In this document: piece by piece, positions 5,001 to 39,350 of the stretch | How positions within the stretch are numbered: the first letter of the stretch is position 1 | How the letters are laid out: each line of letters opens with the position of its first letter | NCBI RefSeq assembly: GCF_964204645.1 | Contig: NC_134026.1 | Span: 29,530,650-29,594,649 of the forward strand | Direction of reading: 5' to 3' | DNA length: 64,000 nt | Origin: Tubulanus polymorphus | Lineage: Eukaryota; Nemertea; Palaeonemertea; Tubulaniformes; Tubulanidae | Notes under the pieces: generated by a model | Databases searched by the model: none | What the model saw: only the letters and a program-made list of their open reading frames with translations | Told to the model about the DNA's origin: nothing | Program-made: the position numbers and the translations under genes

Positions 5001-7050
5001 TTTATATGGAAATCGATGAAATGAATGTATCTAATATATATCACGGTGGTTCTTATAGTTGTCACTTTTGAATTGCGATCAAAATGACACATTTCAAATT
5101 TCAGAATATGAAATATATGCGGTTATCTAAATGAAATAAACGGGGGAGAATCGTTATGGATTTTGTTGTGAATGCTTTAACTAAAGTTTAACTCCCTCGG
5201 GGTAAAATCCATGCGATATATGATCTTTAACATTAGCCGCCATTGGTCGTCAAGCCCAAGCTGCTAACTGAAGCAAAAATAGAGTCGAAAGCAACATTAC
5301 GGCCAACATGACGCAAGCGCTGTAAGTGTTTTCCCCACCGTCTCAGGTTTTTCATTGGTTCAGATTGATGCCATCTCGCGGTGGTCAGATTCACATTTTC
5401 AGAGGAAGCACACATCAGCTTGATTTATAAATGCGAACCTTTGCCCAACCCTGAGGTGTTGATTGTCTGTAGATTGGAAACAACGAGAGCAATAATTCCT
5501 GATTTGCCCAGTAATCAGAAACTAAACGTGACTGAACTCCAGTTGCCAACTTTCACGAATTACCAATTACAAACCAGTTTTCCGTCATCATAGACACAAT
5601 GACGAGCTATTTCCATCTTTTCGGGTGAACACGAGAACTTAAACAGCGACACGAGGTGTGATTTCCTAAGACAAGGTGTGAAATTGGCCTTTGGTAAGAC
5701 TATAGGATTTCAACTGCACAAACCTACGTCTAACCTTTCAGAAATTTTTGACTGTTACAAATATACAGAGTAAACATAAAATTGAGCAACTGAGCAAAGT
5801 GAAATTTTATTAAAAACTTTTCACAAATAGACTTTTAGATTTTGAGATCCGCCGTGGTAAAGCATTAACTGCATATTAATCACGTTACCGATTCTATCGC
5901 TCGTCGGGTTCAGCACTCATTTCATTTAGAGGAGTGATCATTGAAGAACTAGCAATCCGAATCAAAAGCACGCCTGAAGCGCGAAAAAAATCAGTGCATG
6001 ATTAGTTGTCTCATTGGTGAGCTGCTGGTGAAAATAAACATTGATGGAATCAGGAAGTTTTTAGCATTAATACCTTGGTTTCAATTATCTTCATGCCTCG
6101 TATAACGATTTATCTTGATATTGCCTGACGTTTAATTTGAAATGAAATTCTACCGCGTGAAACGAAACAAAATCGTTAATGGTCATTTTATATGAACCGA
6201 AAATCGAAAACCAGTGTGGCTGCTGTCGTCGGCAACTAGAGAATGAATGAGTAATGAGCCCGACTCGATCTAGACAGAGGTTTGTACATCTCAAATCAGA
6301 CAGTTTCTTGTCAAACAAAACGCCGTCAATTCTCTTGTCATTGTTGTTATTTCAAGAGGAAGAGATTTTCAGCGCGATGGTGAGTGTAGTTCCGCACTGT
6401 GTGATTCAGCTGTTTAGGAAATCAAGAAGTATTTGCGAATGTAATTTCATTTAATTGCCGGCAGGTATCATTCGAAAATTGAAACCCTACTAATTCCCGA
6501 TCAAATAAGCCACAGTCCCACGTATATTTCAACAAGATTTGTTTAGGAAAGGTACGTCATCAGGGAGAGAATATAATAGAACGTGCCGTATTGGAAGATA
6601 TGATCCAACCTGTATCGAATGTATAATGATTAATGCAGGAAACTCTCAATCGAATCTAACCTGGGTCTAGATTGGTTAAATGAGCAAACGTAAATCAAAG
6701 CTTTATCTTCAAATTAACATCGTTATTATTTTCTGAATACGAAGCACGTTTCATATTTACATATGGATACACACTGAGCCACGCGGTTCCAGATTCACCT
6801 CTAATTCTTGTTTCATAAAATATGACACAATCGGATATGAAGAATTGTTTGTGCTCTCCAGTTCCTTCATTTTCAAGGGTTTGCAAATCTACCCCACTAC
6901 TTACATATTCTACCAAATTCACTCCTGGCATATTCCATGTCTTATATTTTCAGACTTGGCATTTTCAGTACCTGGCATTTTCAGCATTCTCTTGTACCCC
7001 GAGCTGTAGTCGTATGTTTTTCACATGCATTATACCGCGTTAGTAGTTAA
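2036..7050. other. Long non-coding interval, possible intron/upstream region of the neuropeptide gene
   Basis: No exon with convincing codon structure was found. Short open frames (for example 5381-5593 + and 6091-6318 -) lack similarity and splice context. Perfect CRE palindromes TGACGTCA occur at 2851-2858 and 4325-4332. A TATA-like box lies at 3039-3046. If the donor at 3157 is real, most of this interval is the first intron of the neuropeptide gene. Confidence 0.4.
2851..3156 (+). promoter_or_regulatory. Candidate CRE/TATA promoter and 5' UTR exon
   Basis: The stretch has TGACGTCA at 2851-2858, a half-site TGACGTAG at 3010-3017, TATA-like CTTATAAG at 3039-3046 and an initiator-like TTCAGT at 3061-3066. 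About 90 bases later comes a strong splice donor, GTAAGTG, at 3157. The next acceptor before a start codon on this strand is the TTTCAG just before the neuropeptide ATG at 9624. CRE-rich TATA promoters with a remote untranslated first exon are common for neuropeptide genes. The link across 6.4 kb is inference. A competing TATATAAGG at 8681-8689 lies closer but lacks a good donor after it. Confidence 0.33.
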
Positions 7051-7053
7051 GTA

Positions 7054-7465
7054 CGGAAGCGATAAGGGGCCTCGAGATGTCGCGTTCCAACTCGACAAGT
7101 CGTCATATTTATGTCGACATACCGCGATATATCGCGTCAAGTGGACATGAATATGTCGATATATCGTGACGTTTGGACGACATATTTCGTTTTCACGACC
7201 ATTTTCCTCGCGACAAGTCGACATATTCATGACGACTTGAAACTCAGTCGTCATATCACTGGCGTCCTCGTCTTACATTTAGACGTGTCTTCAGATGACT
7301 TCTTGTCCCGTGGAAAATGGGCGAAAAAGTGAAATTTGTCGTGAAAACGTCACGATATATCGACATATTCATGTCGACGTGACGTGATATATCGCGATAT
7401 GTCGACATAAATATGGCGACTTGTCGAGTTGGAACGCGACATCTCGAGGCCCCTTATCGCTTCCG
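7054..7465. mobile_element. Long-armed MITE, TA-flanked
   Basis: The left arm (from CGGAAGCGATAAGGGGCC at 7054) and right arm (ending GGCCCCTTATCGCTTCCG at 7465) are near-identical inverted repeats of about 150 bp around a spacer of roughly 105 bp. TA dinucleotides at 7052-7053 and 7466-7467 look like a TA target duplication, as in Tc1/mariner-type insertions. The arms hold many short palindromes such as GTCGACAT and CGCGATATATCGCG. No transposase frame is present, so the element is non-autonomous. Confidence 0.8.
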
Positions 7466-7467
7466 TA

Positions 7468-9610
7468 GTTAGGGACCCCTAACTACCCGCGTATCATATG
7501 AAGACTAGATCAAACACAATGAAACCAACTAAAATAATCACTTATGTTTTGTGTAAATTGGAACATGTTACGTGCCGGTCGTTTCCTTCCGATTGTTTCA
7601 TGAATGGCCAACATCTAAAACGCCCATCCATTAGCTATGTTAGATCCAGTCTATCGAAGGATTTAATTTCACATTTTTATTGTATATCATTTTCATCGAA
7701 AAATCTTCAACCTCACATTTCAACGAGCTTTATTCTTCTTTGTTTGAATGTGTTAGTATGTGAAAAATATCTGCTTGTGTAAACAAATTGACGCATTTCG
7801 GCTTGTATTTGACTGGATATACGTGCACATACATAGCATCTCTAGGGGTGATCGGTAGGGCGCTAATATGCCGGTATGTAACGCAGGGATTGTCTGAGTG
7901 ATTGGATGAATGATACGGGATCAGCAACGTCTAATTCAAACTCATCTACGATCTTCCACATTTTGCGCAAAGCGAATGATTCTTCAATCTTAGATGTCAG
8001 CTCGTATACATCAGTAGTGTGATTGCAGACGCGGTGTGGTGATGTCCACAAGCTTCCATCGCTCTGACCGTTCCTTCATTCAACGACGCACAATCAGCTT
8101 TTTCCATAAACACCACAGAAACCGACGGGTTCCCAATTACAGTGAATCAAATCAATGCGCGAGAATAAGATATTTGTGAGGATGTAGAAAAAAGTATTCG
8201 TTTCCCTTTAAAAATAGAATGTCAAAAGCTGTAGCAGTTAAAGATAAATCCATCGTTCCACGCTTTCCGGAAAATAAAGTCATAATTTTTAGAAGATGCT
8301 ACTTTAGTCGTTTGGAGGAGCGTGATAATAAATTAGTCTCACGAGATTAATTGACCGTGTGATCTACACTGAAGAACTGTTTCTCCCTCAGTGACTACCT
8401 CACAACCGTACGAACGGAAGCGCGAGGAAAAGATAATTTGCTATCGTGCATTTTCTTCTGTAAAGCGAAATATAGATATTCAATTCATTAGTAATAACCA
8501 CACGAATCTGCGCATACAACAGATATACACATGTATTCTTTGAAGTTGAAGTAGGTAAAATGGTGTCATCACTTCTCCCAACGATCTAAAACGTTCTGTA
8601 CTTTGTTTGAGCTTAAGATGAGGATTACTTTAACAGAACTTTGCGAGAAATTTCTCCATTTCAAATGGAAGTTAAAGATCTATATAAGGCGCTTATAATG
8701 TACACACGTACTTCAATTTAGATTATGTTCGATGCAGAATCAAAACATTAGAATTCCTTAATCACTCAGGAGGATGTAGAAGATGTTATAAAGTTTTTAA
8801 ACTGGTCTAGCACTAAGACATTATCAATACGTGATATGCCTCTGGAAGAACCCTGTTCCCCTAAATCATTCATGCATGAGTTTATCTTTCATCCGAAGTT
8901 AGTCATGAATTAACCATATAATATTCGTTCGCTTATGGCGTTTAGACGACAAAATCTAAATACGCATATAAAGAGATAAAGAGAAGAAAAATTACTAGTT
9001 GATGGCGCTATCTGTTTGCAGTGGATTTGGCATAATTTTCTAATCTAGTTACACTGGGAAATTATACGATGCTCATTTTCTAGTCGCACACAAATATCCC
9101 CCAATGGGCAACACTGATCCAGACCATTATCACGTTCCCTGATATATGTGTATATGATATTTCATTAGACCCGAGGCTTCTCAATCCGGGACAGCTACGT
9201 ACGGCTATATTCTATAATTTGTATTAAAATTGACTGATATTTTTTAACGTTAATCTAGAAGATGTCATGAATTCGATTAACATGCAAATGCATGCATTTA
9301 TTCATAACCAACGAACGTGTACCAAAGAATTTTGTTAGTGAACTGGATAATTACATTTTGATTGATCTCATTAGAAAAACCTTTCACAGCTTTCACAAAC
9401 TGTCTTTTTCCGTCAAGCAGTTATATTTGGCTGTGTGCGAGACCCGGGTTCGAGCCCGGTTCGGTCCTGTAATTCGGTCACCATCACGCCTTGATACTCG
9501 TTACCCATAAAACCTCTATATTTTTCACCAAACGTAATTACAATTGAAGTTAAATTATGATGAAAATGGAAAGAGTCATTTTACTATCTCACTGATAAAA
9601 TAACGTTTTA
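7468..9610. other. Non-coding interval upstream of the neuropeptide start
   Basis: No exon recognised. It contains a TATATAAGG at 8681-8689 and a short tRNA-type B-box-like stretch (GGTTCGAGCCC) at about 9448-9458 with no acceptor or anticodon arms around it. An AG acceptor (TTTATTTCAG, ending about 9616) immediately precedes the neuropeptide start codon. Confidence 0.4.
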
Positions 9611-9623
9611 TTTCAGTTTAAAC

Positions 9624-10982
9624 ATGAGGTGTGAAGTATTGACATCCATTTTACTACTGACGACGTTAGAAGTGTTCCAGCCATACTCTATTTTAGCTAA
9701 AGGTAAGACACATAGTTAAAAACGTAGAATAGGTAACCATGATTTAGTGAATATGTTTCATAACTTATTTTTCTTGTGAAATTAGAAGATGAGAATATCA
9801 GTAAAAGACCATTTGGTCGCTTAAGTGGGCTGCGCAAAAGATTGGTGGATGAAATGGAAGAATCGAGTAGCGATGATGATAAAAGATCTAATCATTGGTA
9901 TCCTCAAGATGTGATAGATAGGTAAGTTCTGTAGGGATAAGACTGCAGTGATAACTAGAAATGTCTGTCAGTCGCTATGTAAAGTGTCGTGATTGCATTA
10001 CAGATTGTCTTACCGAATCATGTTGAAAAGAAATAATGCAGAGGAACAAAATGATGAAATTAACAAGCGGCCATTCGGTGGTATAACCAGAGGTTTTAAA
10101 AGAAATGATGAAAAAAGACCGTTTGGGCCGATCACCGATAAGCGACCATTTGGACCGATTACGGATAAGAGACCATTTGGACCGATCAGTTATGCTGATA
10201 AAAGGCCATTTGGACCGATCAGTTATGCCGATAAAAGGCCATTTGGGCCGATGACGAATAAGAGACCATTTGGACCGATCAGTTATGCTGATAAAAGACC
10301 ATTTGGGCCGTTTACAGATAAGAGACCATTTGGGCCGATCACGGATAAGAGACCATTTGGGCCGATCACGGATAAGAGACCATTCGGGCCGATTACGGAT
10401 AAGAGACCATTTGGGCCGATCACGGATAAGAGACCATTCGGGCCGATTACGGATAAGAGACCATTTGGGCCGATCACGGATAAGAGACCATTTGGGCCGA
10501 TCACGGATAAGAGACCATTTGGGCCGATCAGTTATGCTGATAAGAGACCATTTGGGCCGATCAGTTATGCTGATAAGAGACCATTTGGGTCGATCAGTTA
10601 TCCCGATAAGAGACCATTCGGACCGATCACAAGTCGTGCGAAGAAGCCCTTTGGACCAATTGGTCACGCAGCGAAGCGTCCATTTGGACCCATAACTGAT
10701 AGCAATAATAAACGGCCATTCGGTCCAATTTATGAAGCGAGTAAACGACCTTTCGGATCATTTTCGAGAAATCTAGCAAAACGATCTGGTTATGAAACTG
10801 GTCGCTTTAAGAGACCGTTTGGGTCGGTCACAAGAAGCAACGCGCAAAAACGACCGTTTGGATCTTCTACTAGACTCGATAAAAGACCATTTGCACCAAT
10901 AAATTACGCAGATAAAAGACCATTCGGTCCGATCACTAGGTGGCGCAAGAACGACGACATGAATAGTCCTTTATATTATTAA
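9624..10982 (+). CDS. Multi-copy PFG-type neuropeptide precursor (PFGPITD-like)
   Basis: Exons 9624-9702, 9786-9921 and 10004-10982 give 397 residues. The start is the first ATG after an acceptor; residues 1-24 or so form a signal peptide with a leucine-rich core. After cleavage the chain is almost entirely KR-separated units. I count 27 beginning PFG and one PFA: nine PFGPITD, five PFGPISYAD, and variants such as PFGPMTN, PFGPFTD, PFGSISYPD, PFGPIGHAA, PFGRLSGLR and a C-terminal PFGPITRWRK unit. One spacer peptide is SGYETGRF. None carries the Gly-Lys/Arg amidation signal, so the peptides should have free acids. This is the layout of a secreted neuropeptide or hormone precursor acting through a receptor not identifiable here. 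I cannot match PFGPITD to a named family. Poly(A) signal candidate at 11345-11350. Confidence 0.88.
10135..10640 (+). repeat. 27-bp coding tandem repeat in the precursor
   Basis: Units coding D-K-R-P-F-G-P-I-T are 27 bp long and nearly identical in DNA over about 10318-10525, where seven PFGPITD units follow each other. Variation is mostly silent (TTT/TTC, ATC/ATT). Units coding PFGPISYAD are 33 bp. Both flanks are more diverged, which fits expansion from the middle by unequal exchange. Confidence 0.85.
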
Positions 10983-15114: not shown

Positions 15115-18100
15115 TCACGTTTTCGATGTTGGAGTCTCCGATGTCTTTTTCGAATCTAGAAATCGTTGAAACGACTTTTCATCAGTTGGTTCTTCATCAT
15201 CTGTAAAAATATGATTAAACTAATGTTGAAACATTTAACATGCAAAAATATTGCAAAAATAGATGTCCAGACAAACGACTCGATCCAGATCAATTTGGAC
15301 TGATAAAATTAATCATGTTTGAGAAAATCCGAATTATACATTAATTATCAAACACTTTTGGATAGAAGATGGAGAATGAATAATGAATATATGGAGATTA
15401 AAGTGGGTTTAACTGTATTTGTTACCATCATTTAGATGTATCTCATCATCACTATCAGACTCATTAGCTGCGTTAGGGTTCAGAACTACACCGGATGGAA
15501 GATGTTCGCTATACATCTGTGACACTATTTCAAAGATACATAAATATGGATGAAAACAAATTCTGACAGATGCAGAGAACGGAACCGATGATAAATCCTT
15601 ACTGGACGGAGCGAGATTTTCACTGCCAACATCCAATTTCAAACGCTCTAACTGTTTTTCTTGTTCACGTAAAATTTCTTCGGCTTTTTCGCGTTTGAGT
15701 TGTTCATACTGTGGTCTATATTCGCTAGACAAAGACAAGAAAACAAATATTGAACAATCGTGGTAAATCGCAATCAGGGTTCCTACCCATCGGCTATCCA
15801 TGGATATAAGGAGTTTTCGGGGAAGTTTTACAGGAGAAAATTAAATATTTCTAGGAAGTGACTGCATCACTTTCATATTGAATTACTGTACTCCTTCTAA
15901 ATCAATACTGCTTATTTTGATAAACCGTTAATTCGGTGGTTTTCTATAAAGAAATCTTTATCGTTTACACATCGAAACATGGTTTATAATTTGGTCACCG
16001 CCTAATTGCATAAAGAATCGATTTAGTTGTAGTAGTTTACCATACAACTACAAACATTTCTAATTGCCTATTTCTCAAAAAAAGAGTTTTAAAGGAGTTT
16101 TGGGTATTCTACTCTAAGTAAAGGAGTTAAGAGCTCAGAATAGAATGCATTTTCTGTTTGGCAGTAGTTTTTAAGGAATGAAGGAGTCGTAGGGAGCTTG
16201 TCAATTCAAACAGAACGATTACGAAAAATACATACGTTTCATATTCGCGGGCGGCATCATCAATTGCTTGGAAAAATTCCGGCAAACCATCTCCCGTTAT
16301 AGCTGAAACACCGACCGTCTAAAAGCATCACCACAAAACTTTCTTTATCATTTCTAGTCATTGATATGAACGTAATATATCATCCTGGGTCCTGTAGCTC
16401 AAAAGTTGGTTAGAGTTTACCAGTGGATAGTTGATATAGTGACAATTGAAAGTTCATTGTTACGACGGTATTTGGTATTTATCCCCCGGTTAATATTGAA
16501 CCAACTTTTGAGCAACTGCCGCCCTGTGTTCGTGTATGAAATACTTACTCGGAGATTTTCATAGAATTCGTCAAGAACTAGACTCATCGAACGAGTTAAA
16601 TTTGATACGTATGACGTTTCATGTTGCAGCGCATCTTGAAACGCTTCGAAATCATTCATCCATTCAACAGCAAAACTATGATCAACGATATCAGTCTGTA
16701 AAATACAATAATCATCAAAATCTATAGGATTAAACTAGTAAATCTAAGAAGAGAATAGTCATGTCTCTAAAGCATGGCACACAAACTGGTAGGTCTCTTT
16801 CTCTTTTGTTTATCGCAAAATGATTAGCATTAAAAAATTGTTCTTTTCGATTATTACATTTGACACTGAAAAAAGTTCAATCTTACCTTATTTAAAACAA
16901 TAATAAAAGGCAATTTGGCTTTGTAAAGAATACTACAGGCGTATAACATATTCGACATGAAGGTGACTGGGTTAACACTTCGAGGCGTATCCATTACATA
17001 CACAATAACCGTCGGGAAGGTTGATGCCTGAACAAAAACACAGCAAAATCTAGTTAAATAACTATTACTAAACAAGACTTAATACACTCTTTATGGAAGC
17101 AAACGTTTGTTGATTTTCAACCTCACTTCTACATGAGTGAGAAGTGGCAATTCATTACCCGCCACATTCTTAAAACCAAGGATAACTGTGCACTTGATGA
17201 ATGGCTCCTAAATAGAACCAACGAATAATTCAATACTCACCAACGTTTCGGTGATAATGCTTCCAGAAGCTGACCACGTGAAAACTTCAATCTGTCCAGG
17301 GGTATCCAGTATAACATATCTGTATCACAATATGAAATCTGTTGTATCATCTATTGCATGGAATAGTACACTTAACAAAACAACTTACTTGCATTCGCGA
17401 GACCGCTTCTCCAGAAAACTCAAAACCTGATACCATATGAAACAAGAAAATCGTTAGAAAAAGAAAAACAAATTTTACAGTTAAAGTGAGTTTCACAGAT
17501 GCACGATTAAGAAAACCTGATCAAATCTTGTAGCGAATAAATTGAGAGATGTAACAATTCCTCCATTAGGTCCAAGTGAATATCTATTACAGGTTAAGAA
17601 ATGATAAAATGTATTGCTACATATTTGTAATATCTATTTCCAAAACAAGCAGCACATCCTGAAGGCTGCAATAGAAGCACAATCTTTAATGAGTTTTTGT
17701 TTGTTTTGATGAAAACTTAATATGCCAGGAGTACATAATTAAAAAAAACGTGGCTGTGATATTTTGACAATCATAGTTTTAATCCATCATTGACTGGTCT
17801 ATTTTGACAAGGATACTGTTTCATGACTTCTTTGTAATTAACAGTATCTCTTATATCTGAAAAAGAATAAAATTAATAAGAAAAAAGAGACAAATTTTGT
17901 CGCCAAACATACTAATATTAGGATCAAAAGTTATTGTATTCACCCAACATCAGGTAAACTGATGATTAAATACTGTGCATACCTACCAATATTAGCAGGA
18001 AATGGCACCTCGTGAACTGCTGGGTCTAAGTTGATGACATAAGGTGGAGTCTTCTTAGCATGAAGATGCGCAGTTAATCTCTGAATGTGAAAAAGTTTCA

Positions 18101-18439
18101 AAAAGCTGGTTTTCATAAAGATTCGGTGCTCCCTACTAGGAGTGCCGAATTAGCGAATGATGAAACCGACAGGATGTAGAGTAAGTACACTTCATTATCA
18201 TTATTGTCATGTACAGAAGGCCTACCACAAAATTCTTTAATTTTTACGGGATTAACTCTGTCTGGAGAGGAGACTGGAGTAGGCCTACTGACCTGAACGA
18301 AAGAAGTTTTCCCTGACCCAGCCATCCCCAAAACTATAAAACAGGTTGGCTTCGTTTTTGAAGAACTAGCAGTCGTTGAATCATCACTTTTTTCACAATC
18401 ATCTCCAGTCAGATTTTGGTTTTTCATGGAGGCCGCCAT
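15115..18439 (-). CDS. GPN1: GPN-loop GTPase 1 (RNA polymerase II assembly/import factor)
   Basis: Minus-strand exons 18439-18293, 18080-17987, 17856-17817, 17583-17517, 17426-17389, 17319-17241, 17027-16887, 16695-16549, 16318-16236, 15724-15426 and 15200-15115 give 406 residues (human about 374). The P-loop GMAGSGKT is at residues 38-45, the diagnostic GPN triplet at 98-100, then DTPGQIE and NKTD nucleotide motifs. A coiled, Glu-rich segment follows, and an acidic tail containing DSDDE and a final [10 protein letters not shown]-like end matches the family. GPN1 pairs with GPN3 and is needed for assembly and nuclear import of RNA polymerase II. The start is the first ATG of ATGGCGGCCTCCATG; the second in-frame ATG is possible. 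Exon 10 reads through an unusual hydrophobic stretch ([11 protein letters not shown] onward) that may be an in-frame intron. Head-to-head with STK36. Confidence 0.95.
15790..16205. repeat. Dispersed repeat with GGAGTTTT motifs (GPN1 intron)
   Basis: Contains ATATAAGGAGTTTTC and several AAGGAGTT blocks. Related sequence occurs at 31969-32110 (beginning GGTCCCTACA) in an STK36 intron and at 59815-60060 (beginning GGGTCCCTACAGATCA) near UBE2L3. The shared order of motifs suggests an old non-autonomous element; ends are not clear. Confidence 0.4.
16384..16525. mobile_element. Inverted-repeat element with tRNA-like A-box sequence
   Basis: GCTCAAAAGTTGGTT at 16397-16411 is repeated inverted at 16499-16513. 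The left end (CCTGTAGCTCAAAAGTTGGTTAG) resembles a tRNA A-box region, but no matching anticodon, T-arm or acceptor stem follows. A related sequence lies at about 30625-30870 in an STK36 intron. It sits inside GPN1 intron 8. Confidence 0.5.
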
Positions 18440-18594
18440 TATGAATACCAGTGGTCCGGATCCGGCGATTATTCCGGCGATTATTCCAGAGGAGCGATCC
18501 GCTTTTTTCTCCTTCCTGCGTTCGGGTGAGCATGTACGAAATCCCTGGTTGATATTCGAATTTTTGAAGTTTTCACAAGTTTTTCGGTTGTTCG
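18440..18594. promoter_or_regulatory. Probable GPN1 proximal promoter/5' UTR
   Basis: The 155 bases between the GPN1 ATG and the edge of the foldback element are more GC-rich than the surroundings and contain a tandem GGCGATTATTCC. No TATA box. With the element removed, this would abut the STK36 5' flank (28211-28819), the arrangement expected of a compact bidirectional promoter. Confidence 0.4.
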
Positions 18595-18704
18595 GTGGTG
18601 TACCAGAACACCGTTTCAAGATGGCGGCTATGTAGAGGGCGCCATGGGACAATACAGTGAGAACAGGACCACCGCATACAACACGGGCCGAAAGCATCCG
18701 TAGC

Positions 18705-20705
18705 AACACTGGTATCAGTAGTATCATCGGTCTCTGAGAGGATCGGACAGTATCACTGGTAACAGTGGTATCGGGGTAGCAGTAGTATCACCGGTCTCCA
18801 GAAGGATCGGGCAGTATCACTGGTAACAGTGGTATCGGGGTAGCAGTAGTATCACCGGTCTCCAGAAGGATCGGGCAGTATCACTGGTATCAGTGGTATC
18901 GGGGTAGCAGTAGTATCACCGGTCTCCAGAAGGATCGGACAGTATCACTGGTAACAGTGGTATCGGGGTATCAGTAGTATCACCGGTCTCCAGAAGGATC
19001 GGACAATATCACTGGTAACAGTGGTATCGGGGTATCAGTAGTATCACCGGTCTTGGAGAGGATCGGGCAGTATCACTGGTAACAGTGGTATCGGGGTATC
19101 AGTTGTATCACCGGTCTCTGGAAGGATCGGGCAGTATCACTGGTAACAGTGGTATTGGGGTATCAGTAGTATCACCGGTCTTGGAGAGGATCGGGCAGTA
19201 TCACTGGTAACAGTGGTATCGGGGTATCAGTAGTATCACCGGTCTCCGAGAGGATCGGGCAGTATCACTGGTATCAGTGGTATCGGGGTATCAGTAGTAT
19301 CACCGGTCTCGGAGAGGATCGGGCAGTATCACTGGTAACAGTGGTATCGGGGTAGCAGTAGTATCATCGGTCTCTGAGAGGATCGGACAGTATCACTGGT
19401 ATCAGTGGTATCGGGGTAGCAGTAGTATCACCGGTCTCCTGAAGGATCGGGCAGTATCACTGGTATCAGTGGTATCGGGGTAGCAGTAGTATCACCGGTC
19501 TCCGAGAGGATCGGACAGTATCACTGGTAACAGTGGTATCGGGGTAGCAGTAGTATCACCGGTCTCCGAGAGGATCGGGCAGTATCACTGGTAACAGTGG
19601 TATCGGGGTATCAGTAGTATCACCGGTCTCCGAGAGGATCGGGCAGTATCACTGGTATCAGTGGTATCGGGGTAGCAGTAGTATCACCGGTCTCCTGAAG
19701 GATCGGACAGTATCACTGGTAACAGTGGTATCGGGGTAGCAGTAGTATCACCGGTCTCCAGAAGGATCGGGCAGTATCACTGGTAACAGTGGTATCGGGG
19801 TAGCAGTAGTATCACCGGTCTCCAGAAGGATCGGACAGTATCACTGGTAACAGTGGTATCGGGGTATCAGTAGTATCACCGGTCTCGGAGAGGATCGGGC
19901 AGTATCACTGGTAACAGTGGTATCGGGGTATCAGTAGTATCACCGGTCTCCAGAAGGATCGGACAATATCACTGGTAACAGTGGTATCGGGGTATCAGTA
20001 GTATCACCGGTCTCGGAGAGGATCGGGCAGTATCACTGGTAACAGTGGTATCGGGGTAGCAGTAGTATCACCGGTCTCCTGAAGGATCGGACAGTATCAC
20101 TGGTAACAGTGGTATCGGGGTAGCAGTAGTATCACCGGTCTCGGAGAGGATCGGGCAGTATCACTGGTAACAGTGGTATCGGGGTAGCAGTAGTATCACC
20201 GGTCTCCTGAAGGATCGGACAGTATCACTGGTAACAGTGGTATCGGGGTAGCAGTAGTATCACCGGTCTCGGAGAGGATCGGGCAGTATCACTGGTAACA
20301 GTGGTATCGGGGTAGCAGTAGTATCACCGGTCTCCTGAAGGATCGGACAGTATCACTGGTAACAGTGGTATCGGGGTAGCAGTAGTATCACCGGTCTCTG
20401 AGAGGATCGGGCAGTATCACTGGTAACAGTGGTATCGGGGTAGCAGTAGTATCACCGGTCTCCAGAAGGATCGGGCAGTATCACTGGTAACAGTGGTATC
20501 GGGGTAGCAGTAGTATCATCGGTCTCTGAGAGGATCGGACAGTATCACTGGTATCAGTGGTATCGGGGTAGCAGTAGTATCACCGGTCTCCTGAAGGATC
20601 GGGCAGTATCACTGGTATCAGTGGTATTGGGGTAGCAGTAGTATCACCGGTCTGGGAGAGGATCGGGCAGTATCACTGGTAACAGTGGTATCGGGGTAGC
20701 AGTAG
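18705..20705 (+). repeat. 64-bp satellite array, left arm (about 31 units)
   Basis: Unit 64 bp, beginning GTATCACTGGTAACAGTG. Each unit has three sub-blocks starting GTATC (18, 17 and 29 bp), so it may derive from a shorter repeat. Units vary at a few fixed positions: GTAAC/GTATC, GGTAGC/GGTATC, the linker (CCAGAAGG, CCGAGAGG, CTGAAGG, GGAGAGG types) and GGACA/GGGCA. Variants are interspersed, indicating ongoing exchange. Confidence 0.97.
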
Positions 20706-21944
20706 ACTTTTTTGCGCCGGACACGTTTGATTAAACCGATATTTCGTTATAAAAGATCTCGTTGTAGCGAGGTTTGACTAGTATTACAGTGGAATTTTTA
20801 TCGGTGGTACATGTATTTATTTTCCAGAGTTGCAAAATTTGGTTTCATTTTTTGGTGCGCCGTATCCACTGCCTGGTAATACTCTCTGTACTAAGTTTTT
20901 TTGACTTTGAATAGTACATAGCAGCTAAGGATCGGGGGCCAGTTGCACAGTTTGTGACTTAAGTCCAAAAGTGGTCTTAAATCTTAAGACTGGTCTCAAG
21001 TTGTTTGATTGGCTATAGAACTAAGTTGGTCTTAGACTGGTCTTAAGTTTAAGCCATAACTATGCAACTGGCCCCTGGAAGATTTGTTGAAGGCGTATCA
21101 AATTATCTAACTTTATCGGGTAATCTCAAACTCAAGCGGGTACAGATCAGTCGTCAGGAAAGATATTCAAAAAAATATTCAACGCAGGCTTAAACTGCAA
21201 ATAACCCTCTTTAAACTCTGTAAAAATTGGAAATATAGCTTTAAGAGATACTTAGATATTTTGAAATTAATGAATGTTGCGATTTCTTTTACGCGCGGTT
21301 AAGATATGCGGTCCTTGGGGTCACATCGTCAGTGTTCTCAATTGTTGCGTTCAAAAATTCCAAGAAACGCCAGCAAATATCTGCATTTCGTTTCCTTAAA
21401 AATGGTGTATAAATTAATTTCGTCGAGCAAGGGACTGCAGAACTATATGATATTCAATCTAAACTTATGTTTTAAAAATGAGTGCAAATTATCGCAACAA
21501 TGGGGACCTCGAGGGACCGCCACAAAATGGCGCCTAGAAACTGGAAACTTCTTTATTTAAAAAAAATTAGTTAAGTCACAAGTCACTCACTAATTAGTGT
21601 TTCTCAATTTTAAACAGCCTAATTAAGTATATTGTAAACAAACATATGCATCAATAAACCAATATCAAGATTGCAGATTAAGACTATGGAGAATAAATCA
21701 TTGCTATTATGTACAATATATGATACAATAAAATGTAAAGTAAAATGTAAATGATACCTGAGAAATATAATCACCAATGAAGTCATACAACACAAAAATA
21801 TCAAAAGCATACAACGCAGTAATGTATCAGATCATCACAGTTTTTATAACATTGAATGAACTACCATTGACCACAACTCAGCCTTAGTAGCATTGGTATT
21901 GAAAATATTTCACCAATTGACTATCGGCTGTGTAAATGAATGCG
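20706..21944. other. Foldback interior, left part
   Basis: No gene seen; the open frame at 21306-21560 has no similarity I recognise. It contains a small MITE at 20935-21075. Confidence 0.5.
20935..21075. mobile_element. Short MITE with GGGGCCAGTTGCA ends
   Basis: Ends GGGGCCAGTTGCACAG and CTATGCAACTGGCCCC are inverted copies. The interior is rich in GGTCTTAAG and CTTAAG palindromes. About 141 bp and non-coding, nested in the large foldback. Confidence 0.72.
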
Positions 21945-21950
21945 GGTCAT

Positions 21951-22677
21951 AATACCTCCGCCCAAAATACCTCCACCCAAATATCCCACACCCAGAATCC
22001 CTCCACCCAGAATACCCTCATATGTGTCCAAAATACCTCCAGGCCCTAGATCTAATGGGTTTATGCCTGAAGGACAAAAATTTGAACCTATTAGAAATAT
22101 AATTTTTTAGAATGAATATTTTGTCCCCCCCCCCCCCAAGTTTTAATTTACAGGCAATACTCAAATAAACCAAAGTTCTATAGTTTAAAAGTAGTTAATT
22201 GAGCAAAACAAAGTATAATGTTAATTTCAGTGATCATAGTTGCACTTAAATGGAAATGAACTGAATTCAGTGTGTAAAGCGAAATGTAGTACATTGTTTT
22301 CTTAGATTATAGGACTAATAAATATTCTATAATCTAAATATTGAATAGTTCCCAGAGAAATCTAGCATAAGATTAAAGACATGAGATAAACTAATTAATA
22401 TTCCCAGCCAAAACTAATTGCAAGTGAACATTGTCATTAATTGTTATTCAATTATTATTCAGTAGGTTTATATATACCGTAATACATTATATATGATCCT
22501 ATACATGTATAATAGTCAATATTGGTGGTACTTTAAACATCTAAATAATATAATTATAGTATTTTTTTTAAATTCTGGGTGGAGGTATTTTGGACACATA
22601 TGAGGGTATTCTGGGTGGAGGGATTCTGGGTGTGGGATTTTGGACGGAGGCATTTTGGGCGGAGGTATTATGGGCGT
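21951..22677. mobile_element. Nested foldback A, arms of short GGAGGTATTTTGG-type repeats
   Basis: Left arm 21951 to about 22040 (ATAATACCTCCGCCCAAAAT onward) and right arm about 22574-22677 (ending ATTTTGGGCGGAGGTATTAT) are inverted copies. Each is built of four to six degenerate 12-15-bp units (CCTCCACCCAGAAT-like). The spacer is about 530 bp and non-coding. Confidence 0.72.
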
Positions 22678-22995
22678 ATCCCGTGTAAATAGAAGGTCCA
22701 TCAAAATACCTATTTGTAAAATTCAACAACTTAAGTGTCATACTAAGTTGACCAGCACTGAGTAAGGCGGACGCAACTGTACACATATGGATGAAGAGTA
22801 TAATTTGGTAACAGGTAAAAATCCCTCCTAGGTAAAAAAAACCCCAAAATCCCCCCAAATTTGATTTCACAGCAAAAGTCAATGAAATACTGTAATATTC
22901 TTTAGTTGAAAAACTTTAATAGTTTTGCAAAAATTTCCAATTTTCCCTGGTGTTTTTCACAATCACCTCGGATAATCTGTGTCTTTTACCGTGCA

Positions 22996-23667
22996 GTAAA
23001 AATCCCCTTGGTAAAAATCCCCAATTCTTCAAAGTAGGTAAAAATCCCCCTCCTTCTGAATGTAGTTTAAGTAGATACAATCTTAAGGTCAATTAATTCA
23101 TATTTACCGGTATTTCATATTTATGATACACATATCCTATTTATTATTGTGGAACATCATAAGGATATCATGAGTATACAAACTATTGCATATACTACTT
23201 GAATTCAAACATGCTACAAATCAAAAATTCATTAATACTAAATTAGTACTCAAAAGTTATCACACAGCTTAATGAAAGGGTTCTTAGCACTTGTCAAATA
23301 TATTACACTAGTTTGAAACTAAAATATCTAGAATTAAAAGTTCGTTATTGCTCATAATTCATTGCATCGCGCAGCTCAAATATACCACAAGTTAACAAGA
23401 GTTCACAGGTCAAAGATATTCCGGTTCGAATTTAAAGGTATTACAAATAAAAGTGTATTATTCTTATTAATTCTAACAATTTATTGAAATCTAAGAGTTT
23501 ACTTAAGAATTTATCACAACGAAAGATTTCATTGCACAGTCCAAACATATTTCAGTCTCATCGCAAATTAATAAAATTGGAGTATCATTTTGCTTTGAAA
23601 TGGTCTTGAAAATCACCAAGTGGGGATTTTTACCTACTTTGAATATTTGGGGATTTCTACCTAGAAG
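22996..23667. mobile_element. Nested foldback B, arms of GGTAAAAATCCCC repeats
   Basis: GGTAAAAATCCCC units at 22996-23050 (with CAAAGTAGGTAAAAATCCCC) recur inverted at about 23618-23667 (GGGGATTTTTACCTACTTTG). More GTAAAAATCCC-like units precede at about 22815-22860. The body after the left arm (TCTGAATGTAGTTTAAGTAGATACA onward) is repeated at 25190-25460. Confidence 0.62.
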
Positions 23668-23760
23668 TTTTTTACCATAGTGTACACATGATTGTATGCT
23701 GTTCTACTGGACTTGGAGTACTCGCGGCTATACTTATTATTATTCCAAGACTGGACGCAA

Positions 23761-24440
23761 GTCGTGCTTTCGACGGGTCCATACCTATGTTCCTCGGGTC
23801 CTATGTTCCCCCAAGGGAGATTAAACATAAAAGGGGTTCTATATTCCCCGGATCCGATATTCCTGGAAGATTATGGAAAATGTATAAAAAGGTCCTTTGT
23901 TCCCATGGCCACATACACTCAATTTCGGCGCCGGGAATTCAGAGCATGATAACGCGTCAGGCTGCCAATTAGTTGATGTTGAAAATCGGCACTACATGTA
24001 TCTTTATCTTTATCTTTATTCTATTAAATGAAAATTAACGACATGAATCACAATTAAAAATCTCCCGGGCAAGTTTCAAAGCCTTTTTACAGTGTGACGT
24101 AACTACTGAATAAATTACCTGATCGATCGATTAATTGTCATCTCGAATTTCTCTCGTTAAGTTCTGGCGTTTGCAAAAAATAAAAGCACCTTGTCTGTAT
24201 CAAATTTATAGTATCTAGCAAATACATGACATGATTGATGGACTATTATTAAAAAGCATAGGTATGGACACCGGTCAACGTTTTTATTATTTGGAGAATA
24301 TATGGAACCCTCGTTGTATTATTTCCTTTGGGAGAATATAGAACCCGGGGAATATAGGACCCGGGGAACATGGAACCCGGGGAATATAGGGCCCGGGGAA
24401 CATAGAACCTGGGGAATCTAGGGATGACCCCCCTTTCGAC
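23761..24440. mobile_element. Nested foldback C, arms of GGGGAACATAGAACCC repeats
   Basis: The left arm (23761-23910) has units such as GGGTCCTATGTTCCCC and GGTTCTATATTCCCCGG. The right arm (about 24290-24440) has the inverse, GGGGAATATAGGACCC and GGGGAACATGGAACCC. Spacer about 380 bp. It shares the design of foldbacks A and B but not their sequence. Confidence 0.65.
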
Positions 24441-25154
24441 CGTATTCATTACTCATTACTTTTCAAATCATTACTGAAACGAAGAAAATTTTAATTGATT
24501 TTTATTTCATATGGAAATATGCCGGTTACATGAAACCGGAATTTTTCATTGGATTAAAACAAGGGCCGGGGCTTATTTCTTCTTTGTTTTTCACCGCTTG
24601 CATCGATAGCTTACATAGTTTTGGTAGTCACATAGCCAGATCTTGGAGCGTTAAAATATGCAGGTGGTTTAATTTTACTTGAGCCCATTACAGGATCGAT
24701 AATTCAAATGTAGAACATTTGCGAACAATTTGCGGAAGCGTGTAATATTTCATTTTAAAGAAGTAAATCACATTTTGCATTTTCCTGGATACGTCCTCGT
24801 CAAGTTTTATTACTATTATATTTTCATCACTTGAATTAATTATTTTGTTTTGTAATACAGTCAACCCCCGATATACCATCCACATCGGTGAAGAAAATTT
24901 TGACGGTATAGAGAGTATGACGGTATATATCGTGGGTATTTTACTATGTATTTGTTAAGAGATGTACATTGCCCACAATTTAAATTTTTCATCAAATTTC
25001 GCAAATATCTGCTCAGGGTAAAGAAACGTTCTGTTAATTCTGCTGTTCGCGGTAATCTGGGACAGTTCCCTCTACTTATAATTTTCTTGCCACTTATGGT
25101 CAAATAGTGGCTGTGCATCTGTAAAATAGACAGTTCGACGATGGTATATAAAGC

Positions 25155-25470
25155 GGCTAGTGGTAAAAATCCTCAGGGTTAAATTCCCCTAAAATCCAAA
25201 AATTCCTAAATTCCTCAAAGTAGGTAAAAATCGCCCTCCTTCTGAATTTAGTGTAAGTAGATACAATCTTAAGGTCAATTAATTCATATTTATGATACAT
25301 ATATCTAATTTATTATTGTGGAACATCTTAAGGATATCATGATCATACAAACTTTGAATTAAAACATTACTACAAATTAACACAGTTCATCGCACATTTC
25401 AAATATACTACACTAGCTTGAATCTTAAATATCTAGAATTAAAAGTTCACTATTGCTTATAACTTCATGG
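25155..25470. repeat. Truncated second copy of foldback B
   Basis: GGTAAAAATCCTCAGGG at 25161 onward and the body from TCCTTCTGAATTTAGTG to about 25460 align with 22996-23350, missing the right arm. It abuts the 64-bp array directly. Confidence 0.62.
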
Positions 25471-25473
25471 CAT

Positions 25474-28092
25474 ACTGCCCGATCCTCTCCCAGACCGGTG
25501 ATCCTACTGCTACCCCAATACCACTGATACCAGTGATACTGTCCGATCCGTCAGGAGACCGGTGATACTACTGCTACCCCGATACCACTGTTACCAGTGA
25601 TACTGTCCGATCCTTCTGGAGACCGGTGATACTACTGATACCCCGATACCACTGATACCAGTGATACTGCCCGATCCTTCTGGAGACCGGTGATACTACT
25701 GCTACCCCGATACCACTGTTACCAGTGATACTGCCCGATCCTTCTGGAGACCGGTGATACTACTGCTACCCCGATACCACTGTTACCAGTGATACTGTCC
25801 GATCCTCTCCGAGACCGGTGATACTACTGCTACCCCGATACCACTGATACCAGTGATACTGCCCGATCCTTCAGGAGACCGGTGATACTACTGCTACCCC
25901 GATACCACTGTTACCAGTGATACTGTCCGATCCTTCTGGAGACCGGTGATACTACTGCTATCCCGAAACCACTGTTACTAGTGATACTGTCCGATCCTTC
26001 AGGAGACCGGTGATACTACTGCTACCCCGATACCACTGATACCAGTGATACTGCCTGATCCTCTCCGAGACCGGTGATACTACTGCTACCCCGATACCAC
26101 TGTTACCAGTGATACTGTCCGATCCTTCAGGAGACCGGTGTTACTACTGCTACCCCGATACCACTGATACCAGTGATACTGCCCGATCCTCTCCGAGACC
26201 GGTGATACTACTGCTACCCCGATACCACTGTTACCAGTGATACTGTCCGATCCTTCAGGAGACCGGTGATACTACTGCTACCCCGATACCACTGTTACCA
26301 GTGATACTGCCCGATCCTTCTGGAGACCGGTGATACTACTGCTACCCCAATACCACTGATACCAGTGATACTGCCCGATCCTTCAGGAGACCGGTGATAC
26401 TACTGCTACCCCGATACCACTGTTACCAGTGATACTGTCCGATCCTTCTGGAGACCGGTGATACTACTGCTACCCCAATACCACTGATACCAGTGATACT
26501 GCCCGATCCTTCAGGAGACCGATGATACTACTGCTACCCCGATACCACTGTTACCAGTGATACTGTCCGATCCTCTCAGAGACCGATGATACTACTGCTA
26601 CCCCGATACCACTGTTACCAGTGATACTGTCCGATCCTCTCCGAGACCGGTGATACTACTGCTACCCCGATACCACTGATACCAGTGATACTGCCCGATC
26701 CTTCAGGAGACCGGTGATACTACTGCTACCCCAATACCACTGATACCAGTGATACTGCCCGATCCTTCAGGAGACCGATGATACTACTGCTACCCCGATA
26801 CCACTGTTACCAGTGATACTGTCCGATTCTCTCAGAGACCGATGATACTACTGCTACCCCGATACCACTGTTACCAGTGATACTGTCCGATCCTCTCCGA
26901 GACCGGTGATACTACTGCTACCCCGATACCACTGATACCAGTGATACTGCCCGATCCTTCTGGAGACCGGTGATACTACTGCTACCCCGATACCACTGAT
27001 ACCAGTGATACTGCCCGATCCTTCTGGAGACCGGTGATACTACTGCTACCCCGATACCACTGTTACCAGTGATACTGCCCGATCCTTCTGGAGACCGGTG
27101 ATACTACTGCTACCCCTATACCACTGTTACCAGTGATACTGTCCGATCCTCTCCGAGACCGGTGATACTACTGCTACCCCGATACCACTGATACCAGTGA
27201 TACTGCCCGATCCTTCAGGAGACCGGTGATACTACTGCTACCCCGATACCACTGTTACCAGTGATACTGTCCGATCCTTCTGGAGACCGGTGATACTACT
27301 GCTACCCCGATACCACTGTTACCAGTGATACTGTCCGATCCTTCTGGAGACCGGTGATACTACTGCTACCCCGATACCACTGATACCAGTGATACTGCCC
27401 GATCCTTCAGGAGACCGATGATACTACTGCTACCCCGATACCACTGTTACCAGTGATACTGTCCGATCCTCTCCGAGACCGGTGATACTACTGCTACCCC
27501 GATACCACTGATACCAGTGATACTGTCCGATCCTTCTGGAGACCGGTGATATACTGCTACCCCGATAGCACTGATACCAGTGATACTGCCCGATCCTTCT
27601 GGAGACCGGTGATATACTGCTACCCCGATAGCACTGATACCAGTGATACTGCCCGATCCTTCTGGAGACCGGTGATACTACTGCTACCCCGATACCACTG
27701 TTACCAGTGTTACTGCTCGATCCTTCTGGAGACCGGTGATACTACTGATACCCCGATACCACTGTTACCAGTGATACTGTCCGATCCTCTCGGAGACCGG
27801 TGATACTACTGCTACCCCGATACCACTGATACCAGTGATACTGTCCGATCCTTCAGGAGACCGGTGATACTACTGCTACCCCGATACCACTGTTACCAGT
27901 GATACTGCCCGATCCTCTCCGAGACCGGTGATACTACTGCTACCCCGATACCACTGTTACCAGTGATACTGTCCGATCCTCTCCGAGACCGGTGATACTA
28001 GTGATTCCACGATACCACTGATACCAGCGATACTGTCTGATCCTCTCCGAGACCGGTGATACTACTGATACCCCGATACCACTGATACCAGT
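25474..28092 (-). repeat. 64-bp satellite array, right arm (about 41 units)
   Basis: The same 64-bp unit as the left array, in reverse orientation (GATACCACTGTTACCAGTGATAC and so on). Units 27541-27660 carry a shared 3-bp deletion (GATATACTG for GATACTACTG) in two consecutive copies, showing local duplication. The last units before 28092 are more diverged (for example GTGATTCCACGATACC). Confidence 0.97.
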
Positions 28093-28210
28093 ATTGCTAC
28101 GGATGCTTTCGGCCCGTGTTGTATGCGGTGGTAATGTCCTGTTCTCACTGTATTGTCCCATGGCGCCCTCTACATAGCCGCCATCTTGAAACGGTGTTCT
28201 GGTACACCAC

Positions 28211-28819
28211 TGACTAACCAGTTTTTCTGGGTTTTTTTTTTAGGCCATATAGGTACGTAGGCATTTTTATGTACGTATGCTTTTTGTAAGTTCTAATTGT
28301 ACAGTTGTGTAAAATGTTTGATAAGTTGCCAAATTATATGTAATCATACACTTTAGATTATTTATCTCCGGACGGGCGCTTACACATCTCATCAATTCCT
28401 TAAAGATAGACTGTGGACCCGTCTTATTACTAGGCCTACTACTTCACTATATTGTCTATTTCAACTTTGGGGTAACTTAGTTCAACCCCATTTAATGAAG
28501 ATTTTTTGTAACCCTTCGATACAGTGTAAAATTGGATTGCCAGTTCAAGTTCTGCCAGTTTGATTCTGGTTGTCCTGACCCAATCACCTGAATGAATCGT
28601 TCAGGGGGCTGGTATCTGTAGCACTCCCCTAGACTCTTGAAACCTTGTTAAGTTTTAACAAAAATAAGTAAAAGATTAAGAATCAAACCATTTGCATTGT
28701 TTCATTGTCTGTCATAGAATTTCGGTATTTTCAAGGTGGTGACACTGGCAACAGCATCGACTCGCTTCCTACTTCATCGAGGAGAAAATATTAACACAAA
28801 TTAGACTGACACCGATACA
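28211..28819. other. STK36 5' flank
   Basis: About 610 bases between the foldback element and the STK36 ATG, presumably promoter and 5' UTR. No TATA box at a sensible distance. No other gene. Confidence 0.4.
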
Positions 28820-31800
28820 ATGGACAAATATCATGTGCTGGACCTTATTGGAGAAGGTTCTTTTGGACGTGTTTACAAAGGTCGAAAGAAATTAAGTGGA
28901 CAGGTAAATAAATAGATAAAGTCAACTCAGTTAAAGTCGTCATTGGATGTGTCGTCACAATCATCTCTATTTTTGAGTCCCAATTCAACAGTTGGAGAAT
29001 TAGTAGATTCAATAAAAGTAACTCGTAATATGGATGAGAAATAGAATTAATGGTCATCTCAACTACGATAAAGCTACAATAGTGAATTAGTAGCATACAC
29101 ACACCTCTGTACATCTATTTTAAATACATTATACCTGAGGCTCTATGGCGTTTAAGCCCACAGTGGAAATAAACAATTAATTAGAATATAAGAATTTACA
29201 CCGATGGGTATGACAGTATCGCATTTAGAATATATTGAGGGTGTATGCGGCACCATGTGAGTTTAGTTTAAGTTGGCGTGATTTTATGGTCCAAAAAAGA
29301 ATAATGATGGGTTGTAGTTAATTTACTGATGAATGATCATGAATTGTGGAAGATAAATTATGATGCTCCTCTAGCCAATGCTTAAATATCTTTTGGTTTT
29401 TCCAATAAAAGTTAAGTTTGTATCATGAAAACATGAGAATTTATAGACAATTACAATGACTTGCAAGTTTTTAGATGTATTATGTTTGAAAGTTGATATC
29501 TACAATGATCCGTTGTTTGTATTGTTTGTATTTCATACACAGGTTGTTGCTTTGAAATTCATTGCTAAAACCGGACGTTCGGAAAAAGATCTGAAAAACT
29601 TACGTCGCGAAATCGAGATAATGCAAGGTCTACATAATGATAATATCATTCAAATGTTGGATAGTTTCGAGACGGATAAAGAAGTGGTAGCTGTGACTGA
29701 TTACGCTGAGGGTGAATTGTTTCAAATACTTGAAGATGATGGCAGTTTACCCGAGGAACAGGTATCACATCATTCATTCTGCCGCCTGTACCCACCATAA
29801 CCTAAAATATTCACTATTTGACCGGTGAAGTCTAGAAGATCTGATTTTAATATTTCTTAACTTTGGGTGTCATCAGGTGGCCACCCTTTTTATTTGTACA
29901 TCTCCCCTCAGCCACTACCTGTTAAAATATCTGCTGCCCCTCTACACATTAAGTTGATGTCAATGAGCAATTTCTATTGATGAGTTCATCCCTGAGTAGG
30001 ATGGTGATGGCAGCAGATTCAGCATAATTATGTACTGTTTTCTTTTTTTAGAAAACCCCCAAACCACTAGCAAAGCTTGCATCCACAATGTTACTTGATA
30101 GTGAATGTGGCCCCTCTTAAAATTCTTAAAATATGGACAATTCAATTATATTATGATAGACAGAGGTGTATGGTCATCCCTATTACGTACGGTATTACGA
30201 GTTATTAGCGAATGTACTGTGTATTTATTGTATAGGTTCAAGCGATCGCGTGTCAACTCGTATCAGCGTTATATTATTTACACAGTCATCGAATTCTACA
30301 TCGAGATATGAAACCTCAGAATATATTACTTGGTAAAGGAGGAGTCGTAAAACTGTGTGATTTCGGTTTCGCGCGCTCTATGAGTATGAATACATTAGTT
30401 CTTACTTCTATCAAGGTAAATTACGATCGTTCTCATTCTTTCAATACAAATGAATTCGCATCAATTCTGATATTTATTTTGTTAATTACAATTCGTTTTA
30501 GGGAACGCCGTTGTATATGTCGCCTGAACTGGTTGAAGAACAACCGTATGATCATACAGCAGATCTCTGGTAGATATGTTAAAATTCTTTTAAAATATTC
30601 TTCATCAACTCAAGGGATCTGGATTGAGTTGCTCAAAAGTTGATTAAAGATAGCCATCACTTTAGATACCGCCGTAAAGAACTTTTAATTGTCAATGTCA
30701 ATTACCCACAGCTGCGACTAACTTTTAAGCATACGACATAAACTGACCCCAATTGTTGAAGAGTTGGTTCAAGTTAACCATCAAAAAGATACTATAGTGT
30801 CAATGCAATTATAGTTGTTACTATGTCAGTTATTTCCACAGGTTGCAATAACTGGCGGCCCTTAGTGTTTTGTAATGTTTTATGATTGTGATCCTTGATT
30901 CCTTTTCAATATTTACTACTTTTATTACATTGTATTAAGGAATGTGTTAAAACCCATTTATTTCTAGGGCTCTCGGTTGTATTCTGTACGAGTTGTTTAC
31001 CGGAACGCCACCATTTTACACGAATAGTATATTTCAATTGGTCAGTTTGATCATCAAAGATCCTGTTAAATGGCCCAAAAATATGTCTCCAGTTTTCAAA
31101 GATTTTCTGCAAGGATTGTTAACGAAAAACCCAAGAAATCGTTTACAGTGGCCCGACCTTTATCAACATCAGTTTGTAGCAGATGGAGTTAAAGGTATTT
31201 AGAATTTTGCGATAATCAAATTTCGTGTGAAAGCAAAAGGTTTTCTTAACTTTTTTGATTAAAGTTTCTGAGGAAGATAAGAATTTGTTGAGTCCATTTA
31301 CGACACCTCCGACAGCATCAGTTGTATTAGCTAAAGAAAAACAAACTAAAGAGAAAGCTCATCCTCCCGGAACATCGAAAATTCTTAGCAAAGCAAGACG
31401 TAAAGCCGCAGAGGAAGATGCTAAAAGGGTATGTAGTAACACGCCTTACTTCTGAGTTAGAATAAAGCTTGAAATTTTTTCAAATATTCGATGGTTTAAA
31501 AAATCTTTTTAAAGACAAAAACAAGAAAAGTTGAATCGGCTGGAAAAGAACGAAATGATGAGAAACAACATCCAGCAACAACAGCAGCAGCAGCGGCAGT
31601 AGCAGTAGTGCCCCCTCAGCCACAATCCGAGAAAGTGACGACTGATTGGACTAAAACTGGTGTCAGTCAGGTAGGATTTTATCATTCTAGAATTCAATCA
31701 GTAGATCTCGTGGTTGATAGGTGTAAATTGTATGTTTATATATTGCTATGTATTTGTATAGGCTGTAAACCCGACCCCGCGTCCTGATAGAATCAGTAAA

Positions 31801-38057: not shown

Positions 38058-38837
38058 ATTGATTATTATTCTGATTCATGGCCCTGTTCAGTAGTTAGTC
38101 CTTGGTAAAAACATTAAAATGGATTAATTTTAACTTATGAAGTCACATTTAACTGTAGAACTCGGTCCTGATGTATAAGAATATGTTGCATTTATCATCA
38201 GTTTTGTATTGTATTAATGTGTGACCTGCAGTGAATGATTTTATTATGTTATATGTAGTTCTCTGTAGTTAGTGTAGTTGCCCCTGTCATGGTTGGTCAG
38301 ATCTATGTTCAAACTGCTGCCTGGAATTGAACTGTGTTAAGATATGTTAACCTGCTGTGCGGTGTTTGTACTTAACTTTCCGTCCATGAAACACATTCCA
38401 TCGCTTAAAAACTTTCCAGTTATTCCCTTCCAGTTTTCAAGAATATCAAAACTTTGGGGAAATCTCTGCAAATATTTGAGCAGAATTATTTTCTGTGTTA
38501 TTTTGATTATTTGTATTGTAGTGCTGGTCACAAAATAAACATGTAGGTAAACTTTACCACCAATAATTCAATTTGTAGATTTATTTCTTCGATTTTTGGA
38601 GGTGTGGTGATTAACATGAGTTAGTACTGATGCATTATTTCTTCAAAAAACTGCAGCTAAGCTTCCAGGATAGGAAGGACTTAGGGCTTAACAATAATGA
38701 AAAGAATATCAATGTTGTCGAGCATTACATTTAGCATGACTTGGCATCCTCTGGGATTCGATCGGCTGGCATCAAGACTACCACATGTTGGTACCACCGT
38801 ACTGTCACGGGGAAATTCGCAAACCGATAGAAAACTA
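38058..38837. other. STK36 3' UTR and flank
   Basis: Stop at 38055-38057; AATAAA at 38534-38539 is the best poly(A) signal. After it comes unique sequence with CTCTGGGATTCGATCGGC (about 38750), faintly like a tRNA B-box, leading into the minisatellite. No gene. Confidence 0.4.
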
Positions 38838-39350
38838 CCGGATAATATGGGCTTAATTCCTTTTAGAAAGATATCCACAAGAAAACTACAACAACCGGAT
38901 AATATGGGCTTAATTCCTTTTTGAAAGATATCCACAAGAAAACTACAACAACCGGATAATATGGGCTTAATTCCTTTTAGATAGATATCCACAAGAAAAC
39001 TACAACAACCGGATAATATGGGCTTAATTCCTTTTTGAAAGATATCCACAAGAAAACTACAACAACCGGATAATATGGGCTTAATTCCTTTTAGATAGAT
39101 ATCCACAAGAAAACTACAACAACCGGATAATATGGGCTTAATTTCTTTTAGAAAGATATCCACAAGAAAACTACAACAACCGGATAATATGGGCTTAATT
39201 CCTTTTTGAAAGATATCCACAAGAAACTACAACAACCGGATAATATGGGCTTAATTCCTTTTAGAAAGATATCCACAAGAAAACTACAACAACCGGATAA
39301 TATGGGCTTAATTCCTTTTAGAAAGATATCCACAAGAAAACTACAACAAT
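38838..39350. repeat. 57-bp minisatellite, 9 units
   Basis: The unit starts GGATAATATGGGCTTAATTC and ends CAAGAAAACTACAACAACC, 57 bp, about nine copies with a few variants (TTTTAGAAAG, TTTTTGAAAG, TTTTAGATAG). One unit lacks a single A near 39224. Because 57 is a multiple of three, the minus strand stays open and would encode 19-residue repeats. That frame has no start context, splice sites or known similarity, so I treat it as non-coding. Confidence 0.93.

Follow-up and report, generated by a model that had tools for sequence, protein, structure and literature searches.

We describe here a mobile element in the genome of the nemertean Tubulanus polymorphus, found in a stretch of 64,000 nucleotides (NCBI RefSeq assembly GCF_964204645.1, contig NC_134026.1, positions 29,530,650 to 29,594,649 of the forward strand), which we call the window and whose own coordinates we use below. 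A single inserted element of 9634 bp, at 18586-28219, separates the start codon of GPN1 (18439, minus strand) from that of an STK36-like protein kinase gene (28820, plus strand). It belongs to the foldback-type terminal-inverted-repeat DNA transposons, is very young and non-autonomous, and very probably arrived by a recent cut-and-paste insertion into the 738-bp gap between the two genes.

The insertion site

When the window is compared with itself by BLAST, 18586-20705 pairs in inverted orientation with 28219-26080 at 92.6% identity, and the inverted match runs outward beyond the tandem arrays of both arms, ending exactly at 18586 and 28219. Just outside each end stands one copy of a perfect 8-bp target-site duplication, AGTTTTTC (18578-18585 and 28220-28227). 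From this scar it follows that the flanks were formerly joined, and removal of the element with one copy of the duplication leaves the two start codons 738 bp apart, a spacing that divergent promoters usually allow. The native intergenic DNA has been kept in full: 138 bp of the GPN1 5' flank (18440-18577) and 592 bp of the kinase 5' flank (28228-28819), each with a further 8 bp of duplication and each single-copy in the genome. The element therefore begins 146 bp from the start codon of GPN1 and ends 600 bp from that of the kinase.

A preliminary description, made from the letters of the window, had reported a 9.6-kb inverted-repeat element between GPN1 and STK36, with about 155 and 610 bases left on the two sides and start codons less than 0.8 kb apart in its absence. 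The measured values agree closely with all of these, and the duplication, together with a family of copies elsewhere, bears out the view that the element is an insertion between divergent genes. A search of 18000-29000 against Rfam returned no RNA family.

Structure of the element

The same description called the element “satellite-armed”, which holds for the arms, built as they are of 64-bp tandem arrays, but not for the outermost ~125 bp of each end, which form a non-satellite tip. The left tip (18586-18710, plus strand) starts with GGTTGTTCGGTGGTGTACCAGAACACC; the right tip (28093-28219, minus strand), which reads GGTTAGTCAGTGGTGTACC... when inverted, carries a 5-bp insert absent from the left one. 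The tips are nearly identical yet asymmetric, the left starting with GGTTGTTCG and the right with GGTTAGTCA; the end sequence of the element is GGTTNNTCNGTGGTGTACC. Repeat analysis resolves the left array (18711-20705, plus strand) into 31 units of 64 bp and the right array (25472-28092, minus strand) into 41 inverted units, the unit having 52% G+C.

Between the arrays lies a 4766-bp interior (20706-25471, plus strand), common to nine copies at 99.5-99.98% identity and composed of a patchwork of other repeat fragments. It is without transposase; no transposase-like open reading frame occurs in the element, where the longest non-satellite frame has 115 amino acids. A genome search identified 21111-21557 as a 447-bp fragment, with one end only, of a different inverted-repeat family that is abundant; self-comparison revealed a small nested foldback (21948-22672) whose 94-bp arms consist of ~15-bp repeats, and a second nested foldback has 54-bp arms (22996-23675), part of it (23013-23367) recurring (69%) at 25199-25473. 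Since all copies have them, the fragment and the nested foldbacks are older than the burst of copies described below. The family to which the 447-bp end belongs gave ~2,500 first-look candidates genome-wide, often as inverted pairs ~1.3 kb apart.

A family of nearly identical copies

The family was sought in the genome that holds the window (267.8 Mb). The first 128 bp from the left end are present at 100% identity at ten loci, that is, at nine loci besides the window, among 38 matches altogether. Paired ends define the window copy, eight other near-full-length copies (5.4-11.9 kb) and one 594-bp derivative, and a perfect, site-specific 8-bp duplication was found at all ten intact copies tested, the window copy included. 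In the full copy sequences the interior is the same throughout, apart from one large deletion of the C8 copy, and meets the arrays at constant junctions; compared in pairs, the interiors show 1-21 differences per 3.1-4.75 kb (~0.02-0.54%). The copies at C9:8128485 and C2:26913644, which lie on different chromosomes and have different duplications (AACGGAAT and GTTTATAC), are 1 base apart in 9151 bp. Within the 4766-bp interior, 9 substitutions are private to the window copy, which puts the upper bound of its age at ~0.2% divergence.

Unit number varies between copies from 4 to 59 in the left array and from 27 to 52 in the right. Written as strings of unit variants, the arrays have conserved edges and segmental repeats within, the C2:5330567 copy being one example; slippage or unequal exchange would be expected to leave such a pattern. 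The 64-bp unit was found, among the matches listed, only within copies of the element, with no free satellite among them.

Older, broken copies are also present in the genome. Judged by eye, the one at C4:11492414 holds a nested Gypsy-type retroelement with an extra long open reading frame after the integrase, and the one at C1:11752885 holds nested Penelope-like and BEL-like frames. There is, moreover, a sibling family with related tips: C4:8846799-8846990 is a 192-bp near-perfect palindrome, and at C7:8517444 the same tip is followed by a different satellite-like repeat.

Class, mobilising enzyme and known relatives

Long tandem-repeat arms around a middle domain, a duplication of fixed length (8 bp at 10/10 intact copies) and arms that vary in length by unit number (4-59 and 27-52 units) are the features of foldback elements. 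The kind of element is already known. A transposase made elsewhere would mobilise it in trans, recognising the ~27-bp outer tips, probably along with sites in the 125-bp tips and possibly with further sites in the arrays. Movement would be by cut-and-paste, the ends being joined to the target with an 8-bp stagger whose fill-in would yield the duplication. For one known foldback element, Galileo, additional transposase sites within the repeats have been reported (PMC3688188).

The 8-bp duplication falls within the 8-11 bp range of the Mutator (MULE) superfamily (PMC6446971), although it is not specific to it; taken with the asymmetry of the ends and the foldback structure, it makes a MULE affinity plausible. 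None of the 56 MULE transposase matches is near a tip, the flanks of the MULE copies themselves being unread, and none of the 43 Merlin (IS1595-type) matches lies <10 kb from a tip, the ends of the Merlin copies not being delimited. Two other superfamilies were rejected: P, with 20 transposase matches, none near tips, and two intact copies that start with CAGGGAAGTG; and hAT, with 79 transposase matches, none inside a tip-bounded element. The ends of hAT elements are usually CAG or TAG; the tips of this element begin with GG. Longer copies were likewise rejected as autonomous partners: the extra length consists of other retroelements at C4:11492414 and C1:11752885, and of host and unrelated repeat DNA without a transposase at C2:8888634. 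Solo tips (27-bp matches) had no second end with an equal duplication within ~4 kb. A 36-kb pair at C1:18812563-18848573 has near-matching flanks (CAAAAAGT/CAAAATGT).

Among foldback elements, the TU elements of sea urchins share the long inverted repeats, the tandem-repeat outer domain and the 8-bp duplications; they differ in having 15-bp repeats rather than 64-bp units. The closest published relatives, judged by structure, are Tetris, Tm1, Galileo and FB. Tetris, a foldback element of Drosophila virilis, likewise has 8-9 bp duplications in complete copies and no autonomous partner that has been found, but its repeat is a 220-bp A+T-rich unit that has escaped into long satellite arrays (PMC4079207), in contrast to the 64-bp, 52% G+C unit seen here. 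Tm1, a Mutator/Phantom foldback element of Meloidogyne, has similarly asymmetric outer motifs at its two ends, unequal tandem-repeat numbers in its two arms and short host duplications; it differs in its mostly 9-bp duplications and its 13-15 bp repeat, and it has a member known to encode a transposase (PMC3169594). Galileo, of the P superfamily, also has very long, internally repetitive arms, but it encodes a P-type transposase (PMC3688188), and the P copies of the present genome have other tips (CAGGG...). Outside the foldback elements, ProtoRAG of the lancelet carries near each end a YY1 motif, GCCATCTTG (= CAAGATGGC), whose 9 bases recur in the tips described here (PMC7481187). ProtoRAG encodes a RAG-like recombinase; the window element has none, its tip is different, and its structure is that of a foldback.

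A YY1-like core in the tips; target sites

Each tip of the window copy contains a YY1/TISU-like core, CAAGATGGCGGC, at 18617-18628 on the plus strand and at 28177-28188 on the minus strand (GCCGCCATCTTG on the plus strand), both reading into the element. All nine near-full-length copies have a perfect CAAGATGGCGGC at a distance of 31 bp from either end, and it is kept in most sibling tips, where the rest of the tip sequence is different. It is the YY1 core, and it also fits the TISU translation-start motif.

As for the target sites, the 11.9-kb copy at C2:5330567-5342489 lies within an apparent first coding exon (ATGGCGAACTACGGC...; MANYGRDYDDRPSY/SDRDG, then GT); it is probably a disrupting allele, and possibly heterozygous. 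The copy at C7:10765638 adjoins GCCGCCATTTCT, and that at C1:23729471 has exons of a CDP-alcohol phosphatidyltransferase gene no more than ~0.9 kb away. A bias of the family toward gene starts is possible on these small, partly post hoc counts. In an exploratory proximity test, partly chosen after seeing the data, ATGGCGGC (on either strand) occurred <200 bp from three of the ten young insertion sites and in one of 24 flanks of older or sibling copies; there was none farther out in those flanks, and the remainder of the window has two further sites. It is conceivable, but quite improbable, that each tip is a portable module, promoter or anchor, dependent on YY1, that YY1/TISU-type gene starts attract the family or are where it persists best, and that young insertions rewire housekeeping promoters.

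Alternative explanations

Some results weigh against a recent insertion mobilised from elsewhere. The preliminary description had proposed a search for an allele lacking the element, and in the assembly the flanks, once joined, found nothing but their own places on either side of the element. No copy of the element contains a plausible transposase, and no element that both bears these tips and encodes a transposase came up in searches with tip DNA, with the tip pattern at 3 mismatches, with subterminal interior DNA and with five transposase families whose duplication lengths are suitable or possible. These five (Merlin, P, MULE, KDZ and hAT) are present in the genome, and none was listed in or near a tip-bounded element. 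One might also suppose that the inverted arms are misassembled tandem arrays, an error that easily arises where near-identical units form inverted arrays. We consider this extremely improbable, because ten independent copies sit at unique sites, each with its own 8-bp duplication, and with constant tips and constant interior junctions; the exact array length in the assembly could still be off. Its place in a divergent promoter gap might suggest, instead, an old, fixed and domesticated regulatory element, but the mere 9 private substitutions, the intact duplication and the eight near-identical copies elsewhere make such a history highly improbable.

As to a possible effect on the genes, GPN1 is the one at risk, its start codon lying 146 bp from the insertion. 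Should the element supply promoter sequence, as the preliminary description suggested of its arms, the ~125-bp tip with its YY1/TISU-like core would be a better candidate than the satellite arms, and it is reasonable to suppose that the tips could act as promoters. The insertion may have rewired one or both genes, with the tips serving as promoters or chromatin anchors through the YY1-like core, or may have separated a formerly shared promoter. Besides the closeness to GPN1 and the conservation of the core in the near-full-length copies and most sibling tips, there are published precedents: the motif in the ProtoRAG ends binds YY1 and drives transcription in both directions (PMC7481187), and placozoan Mutator ends sit in promoters and loop anchors and mark promoter hubs (PMC12221973). 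Against rewiring, both cores of the window copy point into the element, away from the genes, and the insertion is young and may be confined to a single allele. Because all of the native intergenic DNA is retained, GPN1 and the kinase gene each most likely keep their own proximal promoter, and we regard rewiring as unlikely.

The two genes and other features of the window

The minus-strand gene is identified as GPN1 by Pfam (PF03029) and by PDB 9t5j (GPN-loop GTPase 1, E=1.8e-33), as the preliminary description had it. Its naming of the plus-strand gene stands in part: a Pkinase match (7.9e-46) establishes a kinase, whereas the PDB matches are to other kinases, not to STK36, and that name comes from the N-terminus, which we take to resemble that of vertebrate STK36. 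Human GPN1 and STK36 have other divergent partners.

Elsewhere in the window, a 329-amino-acid frame (9993-10979, plus strand) has ~25 tandem KRPFGPI(TDK/SYAD) units between dibasic sites, with a signal-peptide-like stretch upstream in frame, near 9.65 kb, and only a weak Pfam match (Mucin-like, below the cut-off); it looks like a multi-copy neuropeptide precursor. Imperfect palindromes lie at 7048-7471 (424 bp, 82%) and 61098-61289 (192 bp, 84%), and a tandem array of nine 57-bp units (96% alike) at 38833-39349 is open in one minus-strand frame.

Significance

The insertion in the window is clean and can be dated, and the state of this divergent gene pair before it is known. The family is so young that other individuals probably lack this insertion, and what a foldback element does to a compact promoter can therefore be tested directly by comparing alleles; if the tips were indeed portable YY1 modules, nature would have set up a before/after experiment in the gap between GPN1 and the kinase gene. 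In this family, moreover, satellite-like arrays can be seen to grow and shrink within an element that moves, and copies as little as 1 base apart serve as time points.
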